Shown: piece after piece, positions 48,977-57,834 of the stretch
How positions within the stretch are numbered: position 1 is the stretch's first letter
Layout of the letters: the number at the start of each line of letters is the position of its first letter
From: Mogibacterium neglectum
GTDB taxonomy: Bacteria > Bacillota > Clostridia > Peptostreptococcales > Anaerovoracaceae
Length of the DNA: 64,000 bases
Assembly (NCBI RefSeq): GCF_030644205.1
Contig: NZ_CP128647.1
Location: 496,001-560,000, forward strand
Direction of reading: 5' to 3'
Made by a program: the position numbers and the translations under genes
Notes under the pieces: model-generated
Databases searched by the model: none
The model's input: the letters and a program-made list of their open reading frames with translations, nothing else
Told to the model about the DNA's origin: nothing

Positions 48977-51610
48977 ATGAGCAAGAAGCTGACACTAGGG
49001 ATATTGGCACATGTTGATGCAGGCAAGACTACGCTTAGTGAAGCTATGCTGTACTCCGCTGGAACAATAAGGAAACTAGGACGAGTCGACAATGGCGACT
49101 CGTTCTTCGACAATTATGAGATTGAGAAAAATCGCGGAATTACCGTTTTTTCGAAACAGGCTGGACTAAACTGGAAGGACAGTCAAATCACCATACTAGA
49201 CACGCCAGGACATGATGACTTTTCAGCTGAGATGGAGAGAGTTCTAAATGTAATCGATTATGCACTACTAGTTGTAAGCGGTCTAGATGGACCTCAAAGC
49301 CATACAGAGACAGTTTGGAGACTTCTCAGAGCGCGGAAAATTCCGACGTTTGTATTCGTAAACAAGATGGACCTTGCTATTGCTGATAGACATGAGCAGA
49401 TTAGCCGCATAAAAGGCAGGCTCGGTGAGGGATTCGTCGATTTTAGTGTGGATAAGAATGATGAGGAATTTATCGATGGCATAACATTTTATTCTCCAGA
49501 TCTTGCCGAGTGTTTTTTGGAAAATCTAAATTTGCCCGAAGAAGGTGTTCGGAAGGCAATCCAAGAGTGCCAGATATTTCCGTGCCTATTCGGTTCAGCA
49601 CTTCATCAAGATGGAGTAGATCGATTGCTCGATGCCATGTCCTCATACACCTACGGCTTTGATGAACGTAGAGAAGACGCTTCACTAGATGATAAAATGG
49701 GGGCTCTAGTCTATAAGGTAGCCCGAGATCAGAGAGATGAACGAATCTCTTTTGTACGCGTGATGATGGGTACTCTTCACCTAAAGGATAGCGTCGCGGT
49801 GAGAACCGAAAACGGTGAGCTTCTACATGAAAAGGTCAATCAGATAAGGATTTACTCCGGTCAGAAGTACACGATGGTTGATTCAGCCTTGGCTGGTGAT
49901 ATATGCGCAATTACTGGTGTGGGCTCATCAAGAGCAGGACGAGGAATCGGTGCATTGGCGGAGGATGAGACCAGAAACGGTATAATTGAGCCGTACCTGT
50001 CTTATAGAATCATTCCTGAAGAATGCGTTGAGCAAAACAAGTTTGTAGCTGATATGAGAATACTCGAAGAAGAAGATCCGAAACTGCATGTTGCTGTAGA
50101 TCTAGGTTTCCGTGGTGCTAATATCAGGCTTATGGGTGAAGTGCAGCAGGAAATTCTTGAAGCTCAGATAATGAGTAGGTTTGGATATAGAGTGCACTTT
50201 GAGACAGGAAATATAATCTATAAGGAAACTGTGACAGAGGCAGTTGAAGGTATTGGCCACTTCGAACCACTTAAGCATTATGCTGAAGTGCATCTAATCA
50301 TTAGGCCAGGTGAACGCGGAAGTGGCATTGCCACAGATAGCATTATCCCAGAGGATGTCCTCAGTAGAAATTGGCAGAATTTAATACTATCGCATCTGGA
50401 CGAGAGAATGTTCCGAGGTGTGCTGATCGGGGCACCTATCACGGACATACGCATTACACTTGCGGCAGGAAAAGCGCATGAAAAGCACACAGAGGGTGGA
50501 GACTTTAGACAGGCAACCTATAGAGCAGTTAGAAATGGGCTGCTGCATGCCAAGTGCCACATACTAGAACCTTGGTTCAGCTTTGAGATAAAACTACCCA
50601 GTGCTAATATCGGAATGGCGATGACTGATATAAGAAATGCATCGGGGGCGTTTGATGAGCCAATTATTGACGGAGATATGTCTACTTTAATTGGGAAGGC
50701 GCCGGCAGTAGCACTAATTGACTATCAGAGAAAGCTTGCTTCGTACACAGGTGGCAGAGGATATATTAGCTGTATGCTAATCGGATATGACTTTTGCCAC
50801 AATGAATCTGAGGTTATAGAAGAGTCCGAGTACGAGCAAGATAAGGATGAATTAGAAACCGGAGATTCGATATTCTGCTATCATGGGGCTGGGAGAACAG
50901 TTAAATGGGATGAGGTTCAAGACTTCATGCATCTTCCATTTGCGCTTGAGAAGGAGACTGATTCAAATAAAAGAGAAGATTCAGCGAGAGCTGAAACGAT
51001 GGCAGCCGGTCGGAAGCTGGCTAGCGATGCAGAGCTGTTAGCAATATTTGAGAAGACATACGGTAAAATTTCAAAGGGCAATGCAGTGAAGCGTAAGGCA
51101 AAGCCGAAAGGATCCGATTACCATGCTATGGAGATGCAAAAACGTTCTCTTCATAGGCTCGAAAGGGTTGGTAGTCCGGATACACACTTCATCATAGATG
51201 GCTATAACCTCATAAATGCTGACAAGCATATGAAAGAACTTTCTAAGGCTGATATTGGGGCGGCCAGGGATCATCTGATAAATATTCTTGCGAATTATCG
51301 CGGATATCTAGGATGCAAGATGACTATCGTCTTTGATGCGTACAGAGTGCCATACAGCTTCGGAAGAAAATATAAAGTAAGTGATACCGAAGTCGTGTAT
51401 ACTAAGGAAAATGAGACAGCAGATGCATATATCGCTGAGCTTACAAAAGAGATTGGGAAACGAGAAAGTATTACGGTGGTATCATCTGATGCACTCGTTC
51501 AAGAGATGTCGCTAGGACACGGCGCTCTCAGGATATCATCTAGGGAGTTCCTAATTGACATCGAAACAGCTCTGCAGGAGATTAGGGAGTTCCTCGATGA
51601 AAATAGATAG
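48977..51610 (+). CDS. Tet(M)/EF-G-like translational GTPase fused to a C-terminal NYN (Rae1-like) nuclease domain
   Basis: An 877-residue fusion. Residues 1-645: a five-domain translational GTPase of the Tet(M)/EF-G type, with AHVDAGKT (11-18), RGIT (53-56), DTPGHDD (75-81, His79 intact) and NKMD (129-132). About 650-730: a charged linker. About 735-875: an NYN/PIN-like domain resembling YacP/Rae1, with acidic residues Asp741 (IIDGYN), Asp787 (FDAYR), Glu813/Asp816 (ETADAY) and Asp838 (SSDA). Rae1 of Bacillus cleaves mRNA in the ribosomal A site. The gene has GGGAGGGG before the ATG and no neighbouring tetracycline genes. Role in ribosome rescue or mRNA surveillance is inferred. Confidence 0.88.
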   Translation: MSKKLTLGILAHVDAGKTTLSEAMLYSAGTIRKLGRVDNGDSFFDNYEIEKNRGITVFSKQAGLNWKDSQITILDTPGHDDFSAEMERVLNVIDYALLVVSGLDGPQSHTETVWRLLRARKIPTFVFVNKMDLAIADRHEQISRIKGRLGEGFVDFSVDKNDEEFIDGITFYSPDLAECFLENLNLPEEGVRKAIQECQIFPCLFGSALHQDGVDRLLDAMSSYTYGFDERREDASLDDKMGALVYKVARDQRDERISFVRVMMGTLHLKDSVAVRTENGELLHEKVNQIRIYSGQKYTMVDSALAGDICAITGVGSSRAGRGIGALAEDETRNGIIEPYLSYRIIPEECVEQNKFVADMRILEEEDPKLHVAVDLGFRGANIRLMGEVQQEILEAQIMSRFGYRVHFETGNIIYKETVTEAVEGIGHFEPLKHYAEVHLIIRPGERGSGIATDSIIPEDVLSRNWQNLILSHLDERMFRGVLIGAPITDIRITLAAGKAHEKHTEGGDFRQATYRAVRNGLLHAKCHILEPWFSFEIKLPSANIGMAMTDIRNASGAFDEPIIDGDMSTLIGKAPAVALIDYQRKLASYTGGRGYISCMLIGYDFCHNESEVIEESEYEQDKDELETGDSIFCYHGAGRTVKWDEVQDFMHLPFALEKETDSNKREDSARAETMAAGRKLASDAELLAIFEKTYGKISKGNAVKRKAKPKGSDYHAMEMQKRSLHRLERVGSPDTHFIIDGYNLINADKHMKELSKADIGAARDHLINILANYRGYLGCKMTIVFDAYRVPYSFGRKYKVSDTEVVYTKENETADAYIAELTKEIGKRESITVVSSDALVQEMSLGHGALRISSREFLIDIETALQEIREFLDENR

Positions 51611-51704
51611 GAAAATTGAGTAGAAGGATAGAATTAACATTATAGTTACAAAATATTAGACATAATTGTAAGGCTAGAAGTAAAGAGACAGAAAGGGACT
51701 ATAG

Positions 51705-52529
51705 ATGGAGAAATATTTGGGATGCCACCTATCGTCTTCGGATGGGTTTGAAGCGATGGGGAAAGCTGCACTTTCGATTGGTGCAAATACATTTGCGTTT
51801 TTTACTAGAAATCCACGTGGTGGTAAGGCGAAGGCAATCGATGAAGCCGATGCACAGGCTTTGATAAAGCTGATGGATGAGCACAACTTCGGAAAGCTTG
51901 TAGCTCACGCACCGTACACGCTAAATCCATGCTCGGGTAAGGAAAGCGTGAGGGAATTTGCACGAACATGCATGCTAGAAGATCTAAAGCGAATGGAATA
52001 TTTGCCAGGAAACTACTATAATTTCCATCCTGGCAGTCACGTTGGCCAAGGCAGTGAACTGGGAATACAGATGATTGTTGATACGCTTAACCACGTGATG
52101 TGGGAGGACCAGCATACAGTAGTGCTACTCGAGACAATGGCTGGCAAGGGTAGTGAAATAGGTAAAAATTTTGAAGAGCTTCGTGAGATTATCGATGGGG
52201 TGAAAATCAAAGACAAGATAGGGGTTTGCCTTGATACATGCCATATAAGTGATGCGGGATATGATGTGAAGAATGACTTCGCTGGAGTGCTGGAAGAGTT
52301 CGATAGAATTATAGGGTTAGATAGATTATGTGCGCTACATATCAACGATAGCAAGAATCCTATGGGGGCGGCAAAGGATAGGCACGAGAAGATTGGAGGC
52401 GGAGAGATAGGTCTTGAGGCAATGATGTCAGTAGTTAATAATCCGCACATAGTAGGGCTTCCGTGCATCCTCGAGACTCCGCAGGAAGACCTCGAAGGTT
52501 ATGCAAGAGAGATTGAGACACTTAGATGA
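51705..52529 (+). CDS. nfo: Deoxyribonuclease IV (AP endonuclease)
   Basis: A 274-residue TIM-barrel enzyme of the endonuclease IV family. Zinc ligands lie in [55 protein letters not shown] and ILETP. It cuts DNA at abasic sites in base-excision repair. AAAGGGA precedes the ATG. It overlaps prmA by 4 bases. Confidence 0.94.
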
Positions 52530-53506
52530 AATATTACGAGATAAAAATTGAAGTATCGGAGATTGGAATTGAGCCAATGCTTGGTGCGCTCATATGCGAA
52601 GGAATAGATACTGCTGAAGTAAACGATCCTGCAGATGCTCTGTTTATGAATGACCAACTTGGGGATACGGATTATCTAGCGCCAGAGGATTTTGAAAAGG
52701 AGAGCAGCAAGGCTCCAAGCATTATAGTATATACAGCAGATGATAGAGCGGCTGATGGCACTGTTGATGCGGTGAATAAGGCGGTAAATGCAGTTAGGAA
52801 AAATGCAGAAAATGGTTTTTTCGGTACTACTGCTGCTGATCTCGGATCATTAAAGGCAACAGTGCGTGTCAGAGATGACGAAGAGTGGAAAGACCGCTGG
52901 AAGGAATTCCTTAAACCGGTGAACATAGGATATAGCTATATAGCTGCTCCACCATGGATAGATATGACTGACTATTTACAAGAATTTGAATCTGATAGAG
53001 AGGTTATACGTATAAACCCGGGCATGGCCTTTGGAACCGGCCTTCATGAGACTACCTCGCTGTCAGCGGATTTACTAGAATCCTATATCGATGAAGGCGA
53101 TAAGGTCCTGGACGTTGGCTGCGGCACAGGAATCCTATCTATATTAGCTAGTAAGCTCGGAGCTAGTGAAGTGCTAGGTATAGATATCGATGAAGAGGCT
53201 GTGGCTGCTTCAATAGAAAACTGCAAGAGCAATGATGTACACAATGTGGATATAAAAAAAGCTGATTTGACAGCAGGAGTAGACTTTAAGGCAGATATAG
53301 TAGTAGCCAACCTGCTTACTAATCTTGTTGTTCGCCTTACCGGTGATATTCGCAATCACCTTAATTGTGGCGGAAGATATATTATGTCTGGTATACTAAC
53401 TACTCAGCAGAATAAAGTGATTGCGGTACTTAAGGAGAATGGTTTTGAAATGTTAGCCGTTGCAGAACTAGGCGAATGGTGTGCAATCGCAGCTGAACTT
53501 ATATAA
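52526..53506 (+). CDS. prmA: Ribosomal protein L11 methyltransferase
   Basis: A 326-residue SAM-dependent methyltransferase with the PrmA N-terminal domain, [15 protein letters not shown] (SAM/substrate loop, about 161-175), [13 protein letters not shown] (motif I) and VVANLLTN. It trimethylates ribosomal protein L11. The stop is 24 bases before the metA-aspartokinase fusion gene. Confidence 0.93.
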
Positions 53507-53530
53507 AAGGGGATTTGGGAGGAGAATATA

Positions 53531-55792
53531 ATGCCAATTAAAGTACCAAATAATTTGCCGGCTATAGAGACGCTTACTGATGAAAATGTATTCGTAATGA
53601 CGGATACACGTGCTATGACGCAAGACATGCGTCCGCTTCACATACTTCTTCTCAACCTCATGCCGACAAAGATTGACACTGAAACTCAGATTACACGTAT
53701 GCTCAGTAATACACCACTGCAAGTGGAGCTTGAGCTACTGCAGACCGCAACACACAAGCCTCACGTTACTTCTCAGGAACATATGCTCGCATTTTATAAG
53801 ACGTTCAGCGATGTAAAGAACGAGTATTATGATGGGATGATCATCACAGGTGCTCCGATAGAGCTACTTGAGTTTGAAGAGGTTAATTACTGGGAAGAGC
53901 TCTGCGAGATAATGGAGTGGTCGAAAACTCATGTTCACAGCACATTTCACATATGCTGGGGAGCACAGGCTGGGCTTTACTATCACTATGGAATAAACAA
54001 GAAAAGACTTCCTAAGAAGCTATCAGGGGTATTCAAACATACGCTTAAAACTAAGCGTAGCATGCTATTTAGAGGTTTTGATGATGAGTTTTATGTACCT
54101 CAATCCAGAAATACTACAGTAGATGAGGAGGATATCGACAATACTCCGGGAATTACTGTTCTTTCCACTTCAGAGGAAGGCGGTGTATTCTGTGTTAAGT
54201 CAGATAATGATAGGCAGATTTTCGTTACGGGTCACACCGAGTATGATTGGAATACACTACTTAAGGAGTATGTAAGGGATAAGGGAACAGGCATTAATCC
54301 GGAGATTCCTGCAAATTATTTCCCTGACGATGACGATTCAAAAACCCCTGTGGTCCGCTGGAGATCATCAGGGAGCCTGCTGTTCTCAAATTGGCTGAAC
54401 TATTTTGTATATCAGTCAACTCCGTACGATATAAAGCTCATCCATAACGAGGATCTTGCACCTGCACTTAGAAATAACTCCGAGCTCACAGTAGCGAAGT
54501 TTGGAGGATCTTCACTTGCAACTGCTGAGCGCATTAGGCATGCTGCGGAAGTAGTCCGTCAAAATAAAGCACGACGCTATGTAGTTGTTTCGGCTCCAGG
54601 TGTTCACGACGACGAAAAGGTAAAGGTCACAGATCTTCTGATTTCTGCGCACGAGAACCCAGATGAATTCGATACCAAGATTACTCAGGCTAGAAATCGT
54701 TTCAAGAACCTTGCAATTGGACTAGGTTCAGAGATTAATATCGATGAAATCTTTGATAAGATAATTGAAAAGTATAAGGATTCTAGGTGCCGAGATTATC
54801 TCATCAGTAGAGGAGAGTTCATAACTGCCCAGCTTATGGCTGAGCAGCTTGAGTATGATTTTGTAGATGCAGCTGAGATTATTAAGTTTGATGACACGGG
54901 GAAACTGCTTGATGATACGACGAGAAATAACATCGAGAAACTTATTAAGAATCATAAGAAAATAGTATTTCCTGGATTCTATGGTTCAAATGAAACAGGG
55001 GAAGTTGTGACCTTCTCGAGAGGTGGATCAGACATCACTGGCGCGATTATAGCATCAGCAGCAAAGGCTGATTTATATGAGAATTGGACAGATGTGCCTG
55101 GACTACTGATGGCGGATCCTCGTATTGTGAAGAATCCTCTCAGTGTTCCTGTAATTATCTATAAGGAACTAAGAGAGCTTGCGCTCAGAGGTGCTGAGGT
55201 TCTTCACGAAGATGCGGTTAGACCTGTGAGCCAGTGCGGAATTCCAATCAATATTAAGAGCACATTAGAGCCGGATAAGCCTGGTACTCTCATAGTTAAG
55301 AATGCTGACTCATATGAGAACCGCCTTGAGATTTCCAGTATAACCGGTAAGAAGGGCTATTCTTCAATTCTTATCGAGCGAGAGAAACTGAATGATGATG
55401 CGAAGTATCGCGAAAGAATACAGAGCATTCTCGACGAGTTTAACATCACAGTTGAAAGTGAGCAGCTTGGGCTCGATTCATTCTCGGTCATCGTCGGTTC
55501 AGAAAGTGTAGCTAACTGTGAGGAAGAGCTAACGGAGAAGCTAAGGAGCGCAACTGATGCTGACGAAATAACAATATCTACTGGTATTGCAGCTATAGCT
55601 GTAGTTGGAAGAAATATCTCGGGAGAAGTTTCTGTTGCTATGAAGATATTTGAAGCACTATCAAGCGCTCATGTAAATGTAAGGTTTATCGACCATGCAC
55701 CAGAGCGTATAAGCGTGCAGGTAGGAGTGTCGGAATCAGACTATCAGAGAGCCATTAGAGCTATATACAATGCTTTCGTTGTGAAAGCATAA
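53531..55792 (+). CDS. Fused homoserine O-acetyltransferase (MetA) and aspartate kinase
   Basis: A 753-residue two-enzyme fusion. Residues 1-303 are a complete MetA with Cys142, His235 and Glu237 as catalytic residues. Glu111 in GAPIELLEF is the residue tied to acetyl-CoA in place of succinyl-CoA use. Residues 318-753 are a complete aspartate kinase: VAKFGGSS at 321-328, [14 protein letters not shown], and two C-terminal ACT-like regions. No in-frame start codon occurs at the junction, so the kinase cannot be made on its own from a nearby start. It joins the first step of the aspartate family with the branch step to methionine. GGGAGGAG precedes the ATG. Confidence 0.93.
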
Positions 55793-55819
55793 TTGGAATA
55801 AAAATTAGATGCTTAACTA

Positions 55820-55874
55820 AACCGTCATCTGAAGTGAACGCATTCAGATGACGGTTGGGAAGCGTCTTTTTTTT
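55820..55874 (+). terminator. Hairpin and T-tract after the MetA-aspartokinase gene
   Basis: Perfect 14-bp arms AACCGTCATCTGAA (55820-55833) and TTCAGATGACGGTT (55843-55856). An eight-T run (55867-55874) lies ten bases beyond, so the terminator is not of the tightest form. Confidence 0.75.
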
Positions 55875-55911
55875 GCTATTATCTAGAAATTTTTCTAAAT
55901 AATAATAAAAT

Positions 55912-55952
55912 GTAACATCTGTTACGGAGATTAGATACATTTAATGTATAAT
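55912..55952 (+). promoter_or_regulatory. CRP/FNR-type site and promoter of the hemerythrin-like gene
   Basis: GTAAC-ATCT-GTTAC (55912-55925) is a perfect palindrome resembling sites assigned to HcpR-like CRP/FNR regulators in clostridia. TATAAT is at 55947-55952 with no -35. The palindrome centre is about 41 bases before the expected start point, the classic class II activator position. An extra TAGAAA-TT-TTTCTA repeat is at 55884-55897. Confidence 0.6.
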
Positions 55953-56049
55953 GTATATACAATTAAAGAGTAAATTAAACACAGTATTGCGACCGTTACA
56001 CAAGCGGATTATAAAAAAGATAAGATTAATTTTAAAGGAGGAAATAGAC

Positions 56050-57834
56050 ATGACTGCAAAAGTATTAGATATGAAGAAAAATGTACACGATCTGGCTACA
56101 GAATTTCCAGAGGTGATAGATATCATGATTGAGCTCGGATTTAAGGATATTTCGAATCCTGTTGCTCTAAATACCATGGGACGAGTGATGACAATTCCAA
56201 AGGGGTCACAGATTAAGGGAATAGACCTAGCTTCGATTATTTCTCTGTTTGAAGAAAAGGGATTTGAGGTTATAAATGTTCCTGAGTTGAAGAAGAAGGG
56301 AACGGATAAAACCCCTGTAGTTAAAGAAGAATCTTCAAAGCCAGCATTCGATTTAAGTAAGCTTAATATTCCTGATTTTGCAAAGGCTTACATCAGAGAA
56401 GACGGAACTGTGGATGTGGAAAAGGTTCCTGATTTCGTAAAGAACTTCTTAGATGAAGATGGAAGAATCGATCCAAGCAAACTCCCATCTTTTACATCAG
56501 GTAGTGATGCGAAGCGTGAAGAAGAACCTGCATCTGAGGAAACTAACAAGCCTAAGAATGCTAGTGAGAGAGAGGTTCTGCTTCGCAGTTACATAGAGAG
56601 ACTGACTAAGGGCGAGGATTTAGAGACAGTAAGAGAAGAGTTCGTACAGAACTTCAAAGAAGTCGATGCTCTTGAGATTGCTAATGCGGAGCAGCATCTG
56701 ATAAAAAGTGGAGTGCCTTTCCAGGAGGTTCAGAAACTTTGTGATGTGCATTCTGCACTATTCCACGGTTCAACTAAGCAGGAAAAGATTATGAACGCTG
56801 AGAAAGCCGTTACAGCATCAAAAGAAGCTGCTCAGAGAAGAATGAATGGCGCAAATGATCGAAAAGCGGCGGAAATTAAGGCTCAGACGCTTATCGCTGA
56901 ACCTGGACATCCGTTAAATGTGCTGACTCTCGAGAACGAGGGAATTGCTGAACAAATTGCAGTAATTAACAAGCTATTTGAGGAAAGTGAGGACCGTTCT
57001 GTAATTACCGATGAACTAAATAAACTTCGTGATGTTTCTATTCACTATGCAAAGAAAGGTGACATAATCTACACGATACTTAAGAGTAGATACGATGTAA
57101 CAGGCCCATCTGATGTAATGTGGACAGTCGATGATGAAATCAGAGATGAACTAAGAAACGTTACCGATGGAACACTATCCGATGATGAGTGGCTTGAGAG
57201 ATCTAAGGCAGTTGTTAAGCGAGCAGATGAGATGATCTACAAAGAGTCGAATATCCTGTTCCCAATCTGTGTACAATTCTTCAAGGATGAAGAGTGGGAA
57301 GAAGTAGGGCGTGATTTCAAGGAATATGATTACTGCCTGCTCAAGGAAGAACCGGCTGAATGGGCTAAAGCTTCTAAGGAGGATTATACGCATAGAGCAG
57401 CTAAGGAAGGTAAGAACGGAGCTACTGCAAATGATGGAGACATCATATTCGCGAGTGGACACATGGCTCCGTACCAGCTTGAGGCGATGTTAAATACTAT
57501 TCCTCTCGAGTTAACATTTGTAGATCACGTGGATATGAACAGATACTACAATGATAACGGTGAGAAGAAACTATTCAAGAGACCAATCAGTTCGCTCGAT
57601 AGAGAGGTGTATACTTGCCACCCACCAACGATTGAACCGATGGTTCGCAGCATCATATCTTCATTCAAATCAGGTGCGCAAGACAAGGTAGAGGTATGGA
57701 TGAATAAAGGCGGAAGCGATGTCCTCGTGAGCTACAGGGCTGTTCGAGATGCGAATGGTGAATATGTAGGAACTCTTGAATGCGTTCAGGTGATGGACGA
57801 AATCATGGAACACTACAAGGAGAAGTTCCAGTAA
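56050..57834 (+). CDS. DUF1858-DUF438-hemerythrin-PAS protein
   Basis: A 594-residue soluble protein. Residues 8-75: DUF1858-like. About 75-170: a charged linker. 172-245: DUF438. 280-430: hemerythrin-like HHE region (His287, His332, then the VMWTVDDEIR motif at 356-365). 465-590: a PAS-like domain (HMAPYQLEAMLNTIPLELTFVD in two parts; KRPISSLDREVYTCHPP). The HYxRKE metal motif reads HYAKKGD here, so one metal ligand may be lost. Such proteins are thought to sense redox, oxygen or NO. AGGAGG supports ATG 56050. Confidence 0.85.
   Translation: MTAKVLDMKKNVHDLATEFPEVIDIMIELGFKDISNPVALNTMGRVMTIPKGSQIKGIDLASIISLFEEKGFEVINVPELKKKGTDKTPVVKEESSKPAFDLSKLNIPDFAKAYIREDGTVDVEKVPDFVKNFLDEDGRIDPSKLPSFTSGSDAKREEEPASEETNKPKNASEREVLLRSYIERLTKGEDLETVREEFVQNFKEVDALEIANAEQHLIKSGVPFQEVQKLCDVHSALFHGSTKQEKIMNAEKAVTASKEAAQRRMNGANDRKAAEIKAQTLIAEPGHPLNVLTLENEGIAEQIAVINKLFEESEDRSVITDELNKLRDVSIHYAKKGDIIYTILKSRYDVTGPSDVMWTVDDEIRDELRNVTDGTLSDDEWLERSKAVVKRADEMIYKESNILFPICVQFFKDEEWEEVGRDFKEYDYCLLKEEPAEWAKASKEDYTHRAAKEGKNGATANDGDIIFASGHMAPYQLEAMLNTIPLELTFVDHVDMNRYYNDNGEKKLFKRPISSLDREVYTCHPPTIEPMVRSIISSFKSGAQDKVEVWMNKGGSDVLVSYRAVRDANGEYVGTLECVQVMDEIMEHYKEKFQ

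Follow-up and report, generated by a model that had tools for sequence, protein, structure and literature searches.

Aspartokinase is a textbook example of how isoenzymes and end-product inhibition control the branches of a pathway, E. coli having MetL as its isoenzyme on the methionine side. In ThrA and MetL the kinase is joined to homoserine dehydrogenase (HSD), a later enzyme of the same pathway; in the aspartokinase-diaminopimelate decarboxylase (DapDC) protein the entry enzyme is likewise fused to a branch-specific enzyme, in that case of lysine, according to the accessible part of PMC555942. As far as the accessible parts of PMC555942 and PMC2705460 go, known aspartokinase fusions are those with HSD or DapDC. 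The first-pass annotation of the DNA described here had reported a kinase fused to MetA as unlike these types, a judgement that agrees with the partners named in those two sources, and among open-access papers we found no description of a MetA-aspartokinase fusion.

The window, i.e. the whole stretch of 64,000 nucleotides from Mogibacterium neglectum that was analysed, comes from a genome of 1.75 Mb in 3 contigs (G000). It contains an uninterrupted frame (53531-55792, + strand) of 753 codons with an ATG start and a stop codon at 55790-55792, in which Pfam recognises HTS at residues 2-299 (E 3.7e-136), AA_kinase at 319-576 (E 3.4e-37) and ACT_9 at 689-749 (E 3.8e-14), so that the first reading of a MetA and a full aspartate kinase in one 753-residue frame was right. 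MetA (2-299) is thus followed by a short linker, the kinase (319-576) and an ACT region extending to about residue 750. The features of the locus are:

52526..53506, + strand: ribosomal protein L11 methyltransferase-like gene (named by eye), upstream, 24 bases from the fusion gene
53517..53524, + strand: ribosome-binding-site-like stretch GGGAGGAG, seen in the sequence ahead of the start codon
53531..55792, + strand: metA::aspartokinase fusion gene, 753 aa (frame, Pfam; in at least 60 of 296 family genomes)
53531..54436, + strand: MetA (homoserine O-acetyltransferase) domain, residues 1-302 (Pfam, NCBIfam, structure match, invariant residues)
54437..54484, + strand: linker, residues 303-318, with no in-frame ATG, GTG or TTG
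54485..55330, + strand: aspartate kinase catalytic domain, residues 319-600 (Pfam, structure match, invariant residues)
55334..55780, + strand: ACT region, residues 602-750, with His722 and Ser728 replacing Gln and Asn of standalone kinases

In comparison with ThrA and MetL, the partner here is MetA, it is N-terminal, and there is no HSD domain (NCBIfam AK-HSD I model 213.3 against a cut-off of 726); in comparison with the DapDC fusion, the branch is that of methionine and the order is reversed (NF006515, 122.8 against 802). By Pfam the domains of the frame are restricted to the HTS, AA_kinase and ACT families, with HSD and DapDC domains absent. The monofunctional clostridial aspartokinases (PRK09034 type, PDB 3tvi) share the active-site residues of the window kinase, but the latter is fused to MetA and has lost the ACT pair discussed below. 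Similarly, the MetA homoserine O-acetyl/succinyltransferases (PDB 2h2w, 2ghr, 2vdj) match over their full length with the catalytic residues kept, the difference being the C-terminal kinase of the window protein.

The N-terminal half scores 477.8 bits with NCBIfam MetA_acetyl, above the curated cut-off of 460.5, and 438.3 with MetA_succinyl, below the cut-off of 495; by these models it is a putative homoserine O-acetyltransferase of the acetyl-CoA type, in agreement with the earlier prediction of acetyl-CoA use from Glu111. Its closest solved structure is 2h2w, matched over the full length. The kinase half belongs to the asp_kinases subfamily (TIGR00657, 263.3 against 208.7) and falls below the cut-off of every kinase equivalog among the best 25 of 27 NCBIfam families, including PRK09034 (417.5 against 434). 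The closest solved kinase is 3tvi (337 bits, query 2-432 on chain 4-437), which we take to be the Clostridium acetobutylicum enzyme.

In an alignment of 59 of the 61 distinct fused frames from the family of the window genome (f1; alignment A1, with L124 and L125 left out), the MetA residues Lys47, Glu111, Cys142, His235 and Glu237 are invariant in 59/59 proteins, four of them (Cys142, His235, Glu237 and Glu111) lying exactly where the first-pass annotation had placed them. The same holds for the kinase residues Lys323, Gly325, Gly326, Asp368, Arg427 and Glu429, and for Arg497, Asp501, Glu517, Asp521 and Asp529 (59/59 each). The equivalents of these MetA and kinase residues are invariant in all 27 fusions of a second, ACT-less form (see below), and the KFGG motif together with the conserved catalytic residues is invariant in the 62 fused and 27 ACT-less kinases. 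The catalytic roles of these residues are presumed; on their conservation both halves look alive, and we rejected a dead kinase in view of the invariant active site.

Distribution and origin of two fused forms

In at least 60 of the 296 family genomes sampled, from 13 of 92 genera, both domains were found in one frame: 58 as full-length matches, plus G259 (with an insert) and G175, the frames being checked after fetching. The match lists for family, class and phylum run best first, with fused frames near the top, and split ones lower down may escape these counts. The carriers include cultured Mogibacterium and Aminicella. For the named ones identity is 90% (Mogibacterium pumilum), 86% (M. timidum), 64% (M. 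kristiansenii) and 58% (Aminicella lysinilytica), and the fusion also occurs in metagenome-assembled genomes; whole-length matches make up 20 of the best 80 loci, and in many genomes of the family MetA and the kinase lie apart among the matches listed. The first-pass annotation had proposed a search for further proteins with both domains in the same order, and had named a sequencing error hiding a stop codon at the junction among the things that would refute its reading. Since the fusion recurs in one frame across so many genomes, chance and a sequencing or assembly slip are excluded. The Tyr299 equivalent and the kinase lysine are separated by a nearly fixed distance, 23-25 residues in 62/62 frames (those of the 60 family genomes, that of the named locus L035, and that of L123, in which the kinase is interrupted at a later point). 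L123 (G265) is a fused gene with a whole MetA and an interrupted kinase frame, and two genomes of one genus (L153 and L154 in G128 and G224; g69) carry a standalone MetA besides the fused gene.

A class-wide search (391 genomes) revealed frames of about 600 residues that match approximately residues 1-590 of the window protein in at least 6 genomes of another family, f42. Among 130 genomes of this family, at least 30 encode MetA and kinase in a single frame, which appears as one match in 25 genomes and as two pieces in 5 (of the latter, G1220 was fetched), and a phylum-wide search (299 genomes) added at least one ACT-less fusion from another class (G930). The 27 distinct frames fetched have 587-608 residues and end right after the kinase domain; Pfam found an ACT domain in 0/3 tested (L174, L194, L216). 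In all 27, 11 residues separate the Tyr299 equivalent from the kinase lysine.

The relationship between the two forms was approached with trees of either half. In the kinase tree (34 fused rows of the window's family, 17 ACT-less, 25 standalone) the fused kinases of the family group together (SH-aLRT 94), as do the ACT-less ones among themselves (99). In the MetA tree (30, 15 and 33 rows, respectively) the fused proteins of the family again form one group (95; 99 when two long rows, L255 and L257, are left out) among standalone MetA, and the standalone row L257 falls inside the ACT-less group. We regard it as a tentative possibility, somewhat short of even odds, that one ancient fusion gave rise to both forms, followed by loss of the ACT region and, in many lineages, by splitting of the fusion, as opposed to two separate events: a tree in which all fused kinases are constrained to one clade is not rejected (AU p 0.674, with a log-likelihood 7.67 above that of the free tree), nor is one with the same constraint on all fused MetA (p 0.442), but the free quick trees place the two forms apart, and their linkers differ in length (23-25 against 11 residues).

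A cousin fusion was encountered in a further family, f50. In G727 (L180, 1635-3926, - strand) MetA is fused to HSD in a protein of 763 aa (HTS 2-299, NAD_binding_3 391-493, Homoserine_dh 504-682), whose gene has a metY-type gene upstream and a cysK-like gene downstream. Among the 11 f50 genomes searched, G527 has the MetA-HSD protein in pieces with 100% identity and a further partial copy with 81%. MetA is therefore found joined to two different enzymes that precede it in its pathway.

The ACT region and the junction

Solved aspartate kinases (3tvi, 3c1m, 2hmf, 2cdq) carry a Gln and an Asn at the same place in the ACT sensor, a pair of the QGxSxxN type that presumably contacts the effector. 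We compared the corresponding positions in 62 fused kinases of the window's family, 27 ACT-less and 25 standalone kinases. Rows with matches at fewer than about 240 positions, including those of L123 and L124, were excluded from this table; L126 and L238, both truncated at the end of a contig, count as fused, L238 comprising the kinase only. Gln722 and Asn728 are both present in 25/25 standalone kinases, including the second kinase of the window genome, and in 0/62 fused ones, where Gln is kept in three and Asn in 25; the residue pair expected of a lysine/threonine-regulated aspartate kinase is therefore incomplete throughout the fused set. At other positions that are near-fixed in standalone kinases, the fused ones mostly carry different residues: Arg628 (24/25), Glu635 (24/25), His643 (22/25), Pro645 (23/25) and Glu726 (23/25). 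In their stead the fused kinases have His722 in 53/62, Asn643 in 37/62 and Leu645 in 37/62. Genomes that have a DapA-type gene and genomes that lack one show similar replacement, a split that covers 14/22 and 14/19 rows found by name, as duplicates are kept under other names.

The ACT region of fused kinases also diverges faster in most bins of equal kinase divergence. At a kinase identity of 0.35-0.45 the mean ACT identity is 0.311 for standalone and 0.327 for fused pairs (14 pairs each), but at 0.45-0.55 it is 0.459 versus 0.358, at 0.55-0.65 0.550 versus 0.429, at 0.65-0.75 0.716 versus 0.575 and at 0.75-0.95 0.869 versus 0.802, i.e. the fused region drifts faster in 4/5 bins and the lowest bin shows the opposite, the pairs within bins not being independent. 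The second kinase of the window genome scores 71.6 bits with ACT_9, against 52.6 for the fused kinase. We conclude that the fusion went along with decay or change of the sensor. The interpretation offered by the first-pass annotation thus survives in part: the fusion and, by model, the acetyl-CoA type are supported, but its suggestion that control of the two steps is coupled through the ACT regions finds no support: the sensor pair is incomplete in 62/62 fused and complete in 25/25 standalone kinases, the region drifts faster in 4/5 bins, and a second form has no ACT region.

That the region has switched to another ligand (methionine, S-adenosylmethionine, homoserine or O-acetylhomoserine) instead of being lost strikes us as rather doubtful. 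The new residues at positions 722, 643 and 645 are fairly conserved, the region is kept in the window form, where it still scores as ACT_9, and a changed ligand fits as well as a lost one; the faster drift and the disappearance of the whole region in the second form speak against it. It is unlikely, in our estimation, that MetA, now that the ACT domains are eroded or missing, has become a new regulatory and dimer-forming domain of the kinase, with feedback from the methionine pathway on MetA and its dimer passed to the kinase and a catalytic domain replacing the ACT sensor of an allosteric enzyme. Still less do we favour an ordinary lysine/threonine-regulated aspartokinase, whose working ACT region would couple the control of both halves: an ACT_9-scoring region is indeed still there (in the window and also in L129), but the Gln722-Asn728 pair separates 25/25 standalone from 0/62 fused kinases, and Arg628, Glu635, Pro645 and Glu726 are mostly replaced whether a DapA-type gene is present or not.

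The first-pass annotation had further argued for a single product from the lack of an in-frame start at the junction. This is correct for the window, whose frame has no in-frame ATG, GTG or TTG between about residue 278 and residue 322, but it does not extend to a general rule, since 49 of the 62 related frames have at least one ahead of the kinase lysine (ATG in 21). Only 14/62 combine such a start with a Shine-Dalgarno-like word, 12 of these 14 having GTG or TTG only, at differing places. Two separate proteins, made by an internal start or by cleavage of the linker, are extremely improbable: in-frame starts do occur near the junction in these 49 frames and in 7/27 ACT-less ones, but the window frame, 13/62 frames of its family and 20/27 ACT-less frames have none, ATG occurs in 0/27 of the latter, the places differ among the rest and the linker length is nearly fixed, and the survey of start codons at the junctions of relatives led us to reject the internal start.

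Gene neighbourhood, leaders and other genes of the pathway

No methionine genes lie near the fusion gene of the window. The L11 methyltransferase-like neighbour adjoins the fusion gene in the other Mogibacterium loci too, with no pathway link. No RNA family matched at gathering score by the window gene, the two sub-threshold matches being chance-like and on the other strand; with neither a T-box match nor paired Met words, a riboswitch or T-box on this gene was rejected. Promoter-like matches (12 against 10.9) and terminator-like matches (2 against 2.7) in 51500-56200 are at chance level. Paired Met T-box words were found in 0/57 leaders of the 61 distinct fused frames of the family, and the search for T-boxes and riboswitches on these relatives (10 + 20 loci) matched only SRP RNA, tRNAs and THF riboswitches. 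The THF riboswitch matches lie near the fused gene in three loci of genus g83 (L129, L130, L137); in L129 the riboswitch is ahead of a small membrane-protein-like gene (551-1096).

Methionine-related partners and leaders are found at the fused genes of relatives. According to tblastn searches, whose queries were identified by Pfam for MetY and HSD and by eye for the other partners, a metY-type gene sits immediately upstream on the same strand in 3 fused loci of the window's family, again those of genus g83 (L129, L130, L137), and in 11 of the 27 distinct ACT-less loci; among the latter, an asd-type gene is found downstream in 4/27 (L194, L216, L256, L221) and a hom-type gene in 2/27 (L218, L221). 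T-box leaders reach the Rfam gathering score in 9/27 distinct ACT-less loci, and all nine have AUG in the specifier loop (GAA-N-AUG-G). An AUG word and an antiterminator word 105-130 bases apart occur in 15/27 ACT-less loci, against a mean of 0.0 in 200 mononucleotide shuffles. Judged by where it stands in the alignment, AUG would be a Met specifier, following the principle of T-box specifier reading set out in the accessible part of PMC2494555. In G044, a member of the window's family (L122, 580-4121), a metY-type gene, metA and an aspartokinase gene are three adjacent separate genes, with 6 bases between the metA stop and the kinase start, which are in the same frame; this row is likely a precursor layout for such a fusion.

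The window genome has a second kinase of 439 aa, whose neighbours, identified by eye, are asd- and hom-like genes and a divergent thrC-like gene. Two genes over the PF01053 cut-off (MetB/MetC/MetY family) lie away from the fusion. Among the 60 fused genomes of the family, a second match is absent among the matches listed for G201, G218 and G230 (77-85% complete), so that a second kinase was not seen there. PF00701 (DapA-type) had no match in the window genome, with controls at 14/14; the aspartate route there therefore seems limited to threonine and methionine, and the lysine of the species may come from outside. PF02574 (methionine synthase) also had no match in the window genome, with controls at only 9/14 for this family, so that the last step to methionine there is not accounted for by this search for PF02574 alone. 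In a survey of 80 genomes picked for completeness, in counts that ignore kinship, PF00701 is present in 22/41 and absent from 19/41 fused genomes of the window's family, present in 24/27 and absent from 3/27 unfused ones (all three of genus g77), and present in 7/12 and absent from 5/12 ACT-less fused genomes. By these counts the link between the fusion and loss of the lysine branch is only partial, and a tight one was rejected.

Proposed role of the fused enzyme

The reading we prefer, to which we assign a probability of roughly 0.72, is that the fused protein is an aspartokinase dedicated to methionine, whose synthesis keeps pace with that of MetA and which has escaped feedback by lysine and threonine. 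The fusion, its conservation, the catalytic residues, the missing ACT pair and the operon partners and Met T-boxes of relatives are observed; for the window's own species we infer both activities, the lost feedback and the dedication to methionine. The second kinase, the recurrence of the fusion, the operon partners and the putative methionine T-boxes of relatives, all described above, had no place in the first-pass annotation.

The protein would be one bifunctional enzyme serving methionine synthesis. Its N-terminal half would acetylate homoserine, the commitment step to methionine, and its C-terminal half would phosphorylate aspartate, the entry step, so that the fusion would yoke entry to exit and aspartate would be drawn in whenever MetA is made. 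As the joined steps are the first and the fourth of the route, direct hand-over of a product would not be the gain; it would rather be equal synthesis of the entry and commitment enzymes under one switch. The separate aspartokinase with an intact ACT pair, next to the asd-, hom- and thrC-like genes, presumably works for threonine. The fused kinase would have shed its lysine/threonine sensor, partly in the window form and wholly in the ACT-less relatives, and with the sensor gone or changed this part of the flux should escape restraint by these amino acids. Its supply may instead be set by synthesis, as the candidate Met T-boxes of many ACT-less relatives would allow, or by the MetA half.

The occurrence of the fusion in many relatives and in two forms suggests that cells reserve a separate supply route for methionine, under different control. 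A recurrent fusion to the methionine branch, with a sensor that is decayed in one form and, in the other, absent and often accompanied by a putative methionine T-box upstream, offers a natural test of privatising a shared entry step for one end product, and such proteins may be ready-made, possibly feedback-free aspartokinase-MetA enzymes for work on methionine production.

Elsewhere in the window (48977-51610, + strand) another composite protein was noted, an EF-G-like GTPase of 877 aa (GTP_EFTU, EFG_IV, EFG_C) with a C-terminal YacP-like NYN domain (739-875), which is kept in M. pumilum (81%) and M. timidum (72%). It is an unusual pairing of a translation-factor paralogue with an RNase-like domain.
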